A stretch of DNA of 34,145 nt, taken from Bdellovibrionales bacterium (GTDB lineage: Bacteria > Bdellovibrionota > Bdellovibrionia > Bdellovibrionales > UBA1609). The stretch is from NCBI GenBank assembly GCA_023299885.1, contig JALZUS010000083.1, positions 1 to 34,145 on the forward strand, read 5' to 3'. Position 1 is the stretch's first letter, and every line of letters begins with the position of its first letter. Below the pieces are notes generated by a model, which saw only the letters and a list, made by a program, of their open reading frames with translations, had not been told where the DNA came from and made no database searches. The position numbers were made by a program, and so were the translations under genes. This document shows positions 31,488-34,145 of the stretch, in pieces.

Positions 31488-32285
31488 TTACCCCATAAAG
31501 TAAACGATAGTGAATGCTCCTGCTAAAAACAAGTACGGAGCGAATAAATAAAGCTTACCTTTATCTAAAAGCTTTAAAAGCACCTTTAAGCTGAGCACAC
31601 CAAAAATATAAGCTGAAAAAGCCCCGGCCAGTAACATCATGATCTCTGACTGACTTAGGTGGCCGTAGCTCGCACCTGCGGCCTCATAGAGCGAAGCCCC
31701 AATAATAGCCGGTATTGATATAAAAAAACTAAAAGCAGCTGCAGACTTTGATTTTACGCCTAACAGCAAAGCCACTGCTATAGTTAAACCTGACCGACTA
31801 ATACCAGGAAGCACAGCTAAGCCTTGTGCTATACCAATTATTAATGCCTGCATATACGTGACATCTACTTTTAAAAAATTAAATCTATCGCTTTGATTTT
31901 CTGATGCCACTTTTCTTTTAGTAAAAAGTAATATCAGCCCCGTAATCCAAAAAAGCACTCCCACTATATAAGTGTTTTCATAAATACTGTGCCAAACTGG
32001 CTTTAATGAAAGACCTATAACTGCTGTCGGAAGTAAGGCCAAAAAATAAATAATGAAAGTTTTTTGAGTGAGCGACCAGCCTTTTAACGAATACAATAAG
32101 TCTTTTCTATAAACAGTCACAATACTAAGGACAGTAGCCACATGGACGGCTAAATCAAATAGGAATGGAGATACTTTTAACTCCGTAAGCTTTTGCAAGA
32201 CTACTAAGTGGCCCGAACTTGAGACTGGTAGAAACTCTGCTACCCCCTGAACTAAGCCTAAAAAGATTGAAATAAAAAAATCCAG
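31488..32285 (-). CDS. uppP: Undecaprenyl-diphosphatase with a non-AUG start
   Basis: UppP (BacA) removes a phosphate from undecaprenyl diphosphate so that the lipid carrier can be reused in wall synthesis. The family's second motif is intact (AQGLAVLPGISRSG) with several membrane helices. In the usual ORF reading the first standard start is a TTG at 32198, which would delete the essential N-terminal motif. Reading upstream in the same frame gives VQGVAEFLPVSSSGHLVV, a perfect family match, reaching CTG at 32285 or ATT at 32288 and then a stop nine codons upstream of the CTG, with no ATG, GTG or TTG. AAGG lies six bases before the CTG. I therefore extend the gene to 32285 (about 265 residues). 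Confidence 0.88.
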   Translation of the reverse strand: MDFFISIFLGLVQGVAEFLPVSSSGHLVVLQKLTELKVSPFLFDLAVHVATVLSIVTVYRKDLLYSLKGWSLTQKTFIIYFLALLPTAVIGLSLKPVWHSIYENTYIVGVLFWITGLILLFTKRKVASENQSDRFNFLKVDVTYMQALIIGIAQGLAVLPGISRSGLTIAVALLLGVKSKSAAAFSFFISIPAIIGASLYEAAGASYGHLSQSEIMMLLAGAFSAYIFGVLSLKVLLKLLDKGKLYLFAPYLFLAGAFTIVYFMG

Positions 32286-32363
32286 AATAAACCTTACTGT
32301 AAGTTGTTACCCTAGTATTTCAAATCTATTTTTACTTTTTGGCAAACAATAATTAGCCTCTAT

Positions 32364-32822
32364 CTAAAATTGCCCACCTATTGAAGAAGACAATCTGCCA
32401 ATAAAAGGCATAAACCCTATTATCATTAATGATGGCAGCTGCAGAAATAAAAGTGGGAACAATGAGTAAAGCGGCATTTTTTTAAGCTGACGATCTATAT
32501 CGTCGTCTATGGCTTTACTTAGTTTTATCTCAAATTCTAATAACTTCTCTAATACAGGTTGCCCCTTAATACCTATTTCTAAAATTTCTAAGAGAATTCT
32601 TCTATGTATACTTTTTATTTTAATTAAAACACTATCTGTCTCTTGGCCTGCCTTAATTTTTTCAAACCATTCTTTAATGTTTTTTGTAAAATCACAGGCC
32701 TCTGGCCGAATCACATAACTTTCGATAGCCTCATAAACAGAGTCCCCACTTATTAATGCTGTTTTTATAAAAAATAAAAGCTCTAAAGGCGGAGCTATAT
32801 TTAGTTGTTTTTTTCTTTTCAT
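32364..32822 (-). CDS. T2SSF/TadC-like membrane protein
   Basis: This 152-residue protein has the T2SSF fold pattern: a helical cytoplasmic part beginning PPLELLFFIKTALISGDSVYEAI, a second amphipathic repeat, and a hydrophobic C-terminal segment (about 122-145). Such proteins form the inner-membrane platform of type II secretion and Tad/Flp pilus machines. It is short and lacks the N-terminal helices of full TadC. ATG 32822 overlaps the stop of the upstream gene (ATGA) and has GGAAGG upstream. It probably works with that gene's product as a TadB-TadC-like pair. Confidence 0.6.
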   Translation of the reverse strand: MKRKKQLNIAPPLELLFFIKTALISGDSVYEAIESYVIRPEACDFTKNIKEWFEKIKAGQETDSVLIKIKSIHRRILLEILEIGIKGQPVLEKLLEFEIKLSKAIDDDIDRQLKKMPLYSLFPLLFLQLPSLMIIGFMPFIGRLSSSIGGQF

Positions 32823-33574
32823 ACCTTCCACTTTATAAACCTCCCCATATTAAATAAGATAAAGAGTCCAAATAAATTAAGTAAAAAAGAGAATAAAATA
32901 ATTTCTTTAAGCTCTAATAACGAAAAATGAGTAGCGGTAACTAGTAGTAAAACTAGATAAAGTGTTGCCATAAATAAGGCCTGAAATTTTGGCTGATAAA
33001 GTATATTGCTAGACTTACGTCTATAATTTGCATGTTTTTTTAGCTGCTCTACTAAGGACTGTAAGCGCGACTCAATATGATACGACTCAGCTGAAATCTT
33101 TATTAGTTCTTGGATATAAAACTCATATTTGACGAATTGACCAGGCTTCGACTGGACCTTTGATAGAGGCAGTGCCCTCACAATATTTACGTAATAGGAC
33201 TGAACCAATAATGGCTCGCTTAAAGCCAGGCCAAGCATAGCTTCTGAGAGGTTTTGCCCCACAGAAACCCTCAATAAAACTCTCTCTAAAAAGACGGGGA
33301 AACCTTTATCTATAAGGCTTTCCCGGCAAGCAGAAATTATAAAAGGCAAAGCCGAGTACAAGCCATTCAATAAAAAAAATAAAGTATAAAAAAGTAAATT
33401 ATTAAGGTTGAAATATGTGTAAATAATTAAAGTCAGCAACAAATAAATTACACAAAAAGCACTACCTAAGTTGTTAGTTATTATTTTTTTTAAAACTAAT
33501 TTATTCAGATAGTGAATTTGTATTTTTGTGACGGCAAACACGCAAATTAAATTAAAAAAACAGGTGTATTTCAT
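32819..33574 (-). CDS. T2SSF/TadB-like membrane protein
   Basis: This 251-residue membrane protein has hydrophobic helices at about 33-55, 60-82, 203-222 and 225-245, with a helical cytoplasmic domain between them (FLERVLLRVSVGQNLSEAML, then LIKISAESYHIESRLQSL). The layout and the 'vGqnLseAm' segment fit TadB/GspF-type platform proteins. It is the first gene of a two-gene unit and faces away from the histone-like gene. No TadA-type ATPase, pilin or secretin gene is in the window, so its machine must be encoded elsewhere. Confidence 0.6.
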   Translation of the reverse strand: MKYTCFFNLICVFAVTKIQIHYLNKLVLKKIITNNLGSAFCVIYLLLTLIIYTYFNLNNLLFYTLFFLLNGLYSALPFIISACRESLIDKGFPVFLERVLLRVSVGQNLSEAMLGLALSEPLLVQSYYVNIVRALPLSKVQSKPGQFVKYEFYIQELIKISAESYHIESRLQSLVEQLKKHANYRRKSSNILYQPKFQALFMATLYLVLLLVTATHFSLLELKEIILFSFLLNLFGLFILFNMGRFIKWKV

Positions 33575-33713: not shown

Positions 33714-34145
33714 ATGGCAGCCAAGAAAAAAACAAAAAAGAAGAAAGCGACTAAGCGTAAGACAACTAAGAAGAAGTCTACAACTAGAAAAAAAGCTACT
33801 AAGAAAAAGACGACTAAGCGTAAAGCTACTAAAAAGAAGTCTACTAAGAAAAAGACGACTAAGCGTAAAGCTACTAAAAAGAAGTCTACTAAGAAAAAGG
33901 CTACTAAGCGTAAAGCTACTAAAAAGAAGTCTACTAAGAAAAAGAAGACTACTAAAAAGAAGGCTACTAAGCGTAAAGCTACTAAAAAGAAGTCTACTAA
34001 GAAAAAGAAGTCTACTAAAAAGAAGGCTACTAAGCGCAAAGCTACTAAAAAGAAGTCTACTAAGAAAAAGAAGACTACTAAAAAGAAGGCCACTAAGCGT
34101 AAAGCTACTAAAAAGAAGTCTACTAAGAAAAAGAAGACTACTAAG
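33714..34145 (+). CDS. Histone-H1-like lysine-rich DNA-binding protein (5' part)
   Basis: From ATG 33714, with SD AGGAGGA at 33704-33710, the frame stays open for 144 codons to the window edge. After MAAKKK the protein consists only of Lys, Thr, Ala, Arg and Ser, in repeats such as KRKATKKKSTKKK. This matches bacterial H1-like proteins (Chlamydia Hc1/Hc2, Bordetella BpH1 type), which coat and compact DNA and may affect gene expression. The C-terminus is not visible. The long minus-strand frame across it (Phe/Leu/Val-rich) is the mirror of the repeat and not a gene. A strong promoter and SD suggest high expression. Confidence 0.88.
   Translation, partial: MAAKKKTKKKKATKRKTTKKKSTTRKKATKKKTTKRKATKKKSTKKKTTKRKATKKKSTKKKATKRKATKKKSTKKKKTTKKKATKRKATKKKSTKKKKSTKKKATKRKATKKKSTKKKKTTKKKATKRKATKKKSTKKKKTTK
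33753..34145 (+). repeat. Coding tandem repeat with 45- and 63-bp units
   Basis: The unit start AAGCGTAAAGCTACTAAAAA or a close variant recurs at 33753 (degenerate), 33816, 33861, 33906, 33969, 34032 and 34095. The spacings are therefore 63, 45, 45, 63, 63, 63. All are multiples of three, so copy changes keep the reading frame. The 63-bp unit is the 45-bp unit plus 18 bases (six codons). The array continues beyond the window. Confidence 0.9.

Follow-up and report, generated by a model that had tools for sequence, protein, structure and literature searches.

An apparent CTG start codon of the uppP gene in a draft genome of Bdellovibrionales

The stretch of DNA analysed in this study (hereafter the window; 34,145 nucleotides) is one whole contig of the draft genome G000 of a Bdellovibrionales bacterium (1.84 Mb, 86 contigs, 92% complete), and carries on its minus strand a uppP gene, the features of which are listed in Table 1. 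Profile search gave a match of its product to PF02673 at 221.2 bits against a cut-off of 33.4, covering profile positions 2-256 of 257. The residues Q13, E17, S22-H26, P160, S163, R164 and T168, all invariant among 20 aligned sequences, are present in the uppP product of the window, in keeping with the Q/E-x3-E, SSSGH and PGxSRSxxT motifs of UppP/BacA. Genome search identified only one copy of the BacA family in G000. Alternative UPP phosphatases belong to the PAP2 and VCA0040-like/DUF368 families, and neither PAP2 nor VCA0040-like/DUF368 gave a match in this genome, which is 92% complete. The uppP frame lacks a standard start codon (herein ATG, GTG or TTG), as might be the case for a recent pseudogene that had lost its start, but the 265-codon frame and the invariant residues are intact, and searches of G000 for PAP2 and DUF368 proteins brought up no second UPP phosphatase; we regard such a loss of function as extremely improbable.

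Table 1. Features of the uppP locus in the window
Feature	Position	Strand	Remarks
uppP (BacA family) CDS	31488..32285	-	265 codons + stop from CTG; PF02673, open frame, single copy, invariant motifs kept
In-frame TAA closing the uppP frame upstream	32307..32309	-	read from the sequence
TTG, first in-frame standard start	32196..32198	-	past QGVAEFLPVSSSGH; start there removes the catalytic motif
CTG, likely start (CUG would be read by initiator tRNA)	32283..32285	-	codon -12 from motif Q; start column of the order
ATT adjoining CTG upstream, disfavoured start	32286..32288	-	3 bases from AAGG
Second ATT (codon 5), disfavoured start	32271..32273	-	18 bases from AAGG; lies four codons beyond the conserved start column
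AAGG, weak Shine-Dalgarno (SD)	32292..32295	-	6 bases before CTG; duplex GUAAGGU -3.9 kcal/mol
Palindrome CTTAC-T-GTAAG	32293..32303	.	overlaps SD; not significant

The minus strand reads, from the upstream stop, TAA (32309-32307), CAA CTT ACA GTA AGG TTT ATT, CTG (32285), GAT TTT TTT ATT TCA ATC TTT TTA GGC TTA GTT CAG GGG GTA GCA GAG, and no ATG, GTG or TTG occurs in the uppP frame between this TAA and TTG 32198. The original prediction that the conserved motif lies upstream of any in-frame standard start is thus borne out, as QGVAEFLPVSSSGH precedes TTG 32198. The stop that closes the frame was also seen correctly, except that it is the eighth rather than the ninth codon before CTG, with seven sense codons between. 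The T-run, in which an indel had been proposed as a source of the anomaly, exists but is located at 32280-32274, one base away from the 32273-32279 first given. An indel in this run cannot supply a standard start because ATG, GTG and TTG are absent from both remaining frames between the last upstream stop and the T-run, and only a substitution could do so.

As a test of the start position, the start register was determined by reading the N-termini of uppP in 63 genes from the order, with the window's own gene included and the truncated uppP of G023 excluded. At codon -12 from the motif Q/E we found ATG in 35 genes, TTG in 8, GTG in 7, CTG in 2 and another codon in 11; a start codon including CTG is therefore located at this column in 52 of the 63 genes (50 of 63 for ATG, GTG and TTG), and the 11 genes with another codon carry a standard start at another nearby codon. 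Only two of the 63 genes lack a standard start, those of the window and of G033 (L011, another genus), and both carry CTG at -12. It had been proposed that ATG in relatives would speak against a non-standard start; many relatives do have ATG here, but with CTG at this column in G000 itself, their ATG locates the start rather than refutes it. Altogether, no standard start is present upstream of the conserved N-terminus, and CTG stands at the orthologous start column behind an SD of weak energy at a usable spacing, indicating that CTG 32285 is likely the uppP start, as far as comparison of sequences can tell. uppP was without a match in 5 of 47 genomes of the family, and one in-frame stop each was counted in the uppP matches of G002:C25 and G043:C3 (TGA and TAG, respectively).

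The second CTG gene is informative in several respects. Its CTG is preceded by CGGGAG, with an SD energy of -6.9 kcal/mol, better than that of the window, and G022, a congener of G033, carries TTG at the same uppP codon, one transition from CTG. The uppP products of G033 and G000 share about 44% identity and are not neighbours in the tree, for which reason G033 supports the kind of event but not the base in the window. The tree sets the two CTG rows apart with weak support, and both may have a single origin. The gene of G033 also bears on whether the true genome has TTG (or ATG or GTG) at 32285 and the CTG stems from an error of assembly or consensus: G000 is a draft broken into 86 contigs, and TTG, one transition away, occupies this codon in 8 of the 63 orthologues, but CTG is also present at this codon in an independent assembly, that of G033, and an error of one base in precisely this codon was judged a priori to be rarer than a CTG start. 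An error of this kind is in our estimate very unlikely.

The spacing of AAGG was compared with that of 40 control starts of G000, assigned automatically and in some cases doubtful, of which 20 carry an SD word, with gaps of 5-9 bases in 16 of these 20 and of 12-14 bases in 4, and no gap of 3. The 6-base gap to CTG is within the usual 5-9 range, in agreement with the original prediction that AAGG is well placed for CTG 32285, whereas its energy falls short of the -4.4 kcal/mol cut-off used in PMC4117421, a value set with another program. The original choice between CTG and ATT can accordingly be narrowed to CTG, which has the register of 52 of 63 genes in its favour, while the two ATT codons lie at gaps of 3 and 18 bases from AAGG. 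For an infC-like start at ATT 32288-32286 one may cite ATG at codon -13 in 4 of the 63 uppP genes (L025, L031, L050 and L057) and the rule of AUU, AUC or AUA starts for infC in the order; against it, a gap below 5 was found in none of the 20 SD-bearing control starts, and the uppP of G033, which likewise lacks a standard start, has no ATT or ATC at codon -13. We consider initiation at this ATT distinctly unlikely. The palindrome overlapping the SD is present at 32293-32303 as described, but is trivial and at the level of chance, with 68 palindromes of 5-base arms and 1-base centre in the window; it was rejected as an operator or SD hairpin, the fold of the 56-base region also being average (z -0.09). 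A promoter scan gave 3 sites against 6.5 expected.

In order to estimate how rare such a start is, we searched for a uppP DNA pattern with CTG at -12; it matched 2 genomes among the 140 of the order and 2 among the 368 of the phylum set, which takes in these 140. The same pattern with ATG, GTG or TTG was found in 109 of the 140 genomes (110 matches, from which one in G108 was left out as not uppP-like); the pattern misses some true uppP genes such as that of G005. Reversed-pattern controls gave 0 matches, and a standard start was absent in 0 of 80 named, more distant uppP genes. Within a 306-kb sample of G000 (about 17% of the genome), 87 conserved frames with an upstream stop were tested under a lenient criterion, a standard start no more than 5 codons from the homology, and uppP alone had none. 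A general loosening of start choice in G000 is thus unsupported, and since only 1 of 87 frames is affected, CTG starts do not seem to be in general use in this genome, uppP being the exception. CTG accounts for 0.47% of codons in the conserved frames of G000, so that its occurrence by chance at that one uppP codon is unlikely. A preference of the family's uppP for weak starts was also considered: non-ATG starts were counted in 12 of 29 genes against 10 of 82 elsewhere in the order (p = 0.002, G108 left out), the 12 of 29 being 10 of 27 with GTG or TTG plus the 2 CTG genes, read by eye and from related, non-independent species. No clear difference was found from the control starts of G000 (10 of 40 non-ATG, p = 0.19), and the preference was not adopted.

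The best explanation, which we hold with considerable confidence, is that an intact uppP gene initiates at CTG in place of a former standard start, and that this gene is a working gene for undecaprenyl-diphosphate phosphatase. One base substitution at the conserved start position would have turned an ancestral ATG, GTG or TTG into CTG. The weak SD AAGG would place the ribosome, and initiator fMet-tRNA would read CUG as a near-cognate start, so that the N-terminus of UppP is predicted to be M-D-F-F-I-S-I-F-L-G with methionine at the first position. The yield of UppP from CUG would presumably be low, and this low yield might be tolerated because little of the enzyme is needed.

CUG may also have been kept for regulation, such that translation of uppP answers to the level of IF3 or to an upstream translated frame. 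For infC, AUU, AUC or AUA stands behind an SD in 30 of 35 genes of the order (21 of these 30 without a standard start before the domain); among the starts read by eye are ATC for G033 and ATT for G025. Because of the 30 among 35, feedback by IF3 is probably usual in the order. For the infC gene of G000 (L118, G000:C71) the apparent start is TTG, preceded by AAGGAG, which places this genome among the 5 of the 35 in which a standard start follows an SD at infC; G000 therefore seems to lack the AUU signal usual for feedback, and the feedback may be altered there. IF3 represses non-canonical starts, as described for the GTC start of sigR in PMC5472188, and a CUG start on uppP would by analogy be expected to be IF3-sensitive in the same way.

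As to upstream frames, in G033:C24 (L011) the TAA of the frame upstream of uppP lies one base before CTG (1497-1503 of the reverse complement), an arrangement that suggests translational coupling to uppP. In the window, a 12-codon TTG...TAA frame at 32345-32307 on the minus strand, in phase with uppP and possibly due to chance, ends 21 bases before CTG, and the distance from the end of the upstream gene to CTG is 78 bases. The 96-base leader is somewhat stable in its fold (z -2.57); values as low occur at 4 of the 40 control starts, and the result depends on the chosen length, the folding of shorter leader windows being unremarkable. Both the stop arrangements and this fold could be taken in favour of regulated initiation, but the CTG is unconserved, and the infC of G000 speaks against it as noted above. 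The uppP CTG, unconserved across the family, gives no indication of having been selected. Retention of CUG for such control is hence doubtful, and equally improbable is the broader proposal that, in a family of Bdellovibrionota, uppP has moved twice to CUG as a selected brake via IF3 or reinitiation, tying recycling of the lipid carrier to the state of translation.

The reading favoured here, initiation of an intact gene at CTG, can be set beside several known systems. CTG starts make up 0.7% of the mapped coding sequences of Caulobacter crescentus according to PMC4117421, likewise a small minority of ordinary genes, except that the Caulobacter starts come from ribosome profiling while the uppP start is deduced by comparison. 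Streptomyces sigR, described in PMC5472188, resembles uppP in having a non-canonical start (GTC) on a chromosomal gene, but that source reports an extensive conserved ribosome-binding site and a start conserved in 32 of 34 species, whereas the SD of uppP is weak and its CTG unconserved. The infC gene, with AUU or AUC starts and IF3 feedback, also starts outside ATG, GTG and TTG, but its non-canonical starts are widespread in the order behind SDs, while the CTG of uppP is limited to 2 of 63 genes. The non-canonical uppP start of the window is, then, neither conserved nor preceded by a strong SD, given the CTG count of 2 of 63 and the energy of -3.9 kcal/mol. Rare switches of start codon to CUG, in which uppP finds its likeness, are reported in PMC5622118 for 2 of 61,358 AUG, 1 of 5,080 GUG and 1 of 2,468 UUG starts; that source used triplets of close genomes, while the uppP of G000 was compared herein with that of genomes from other genera. 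Near-cognate N-termini of E. coli are catalogued in PMC13245402. Our literature search found nothing on a CTG start in Bdellovibrio and, judging by titles and abstract openings, nothing on non-AUG starts of uppP/bacA.

CTG starts are already known, and uppP adds an instance but no new mechanism. Gene callers that accept only ATG, GTG and TTG would begin UppP at TTG 32198 with loss of the active-site motif, or would omit the gene, and a fixed start register provides a way to find genes with such starts. A natural CUG start on the seemingly sole enzyme of its step in G000 also offers a clean test of the minimal need for UppP. With respect to the neighbouring frames, two frames upstream of uppP (32364-33574 of the window, minus strand) have no Pfam match and give us the impression of TadB/TadC-type membrane proteins. 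At 33714-34145 on the plus strand, a lysine-rich repeat frame (KKKATKRKATKKKS...) runs off the contig end, and we take it to resemble histone H1-like proteins.
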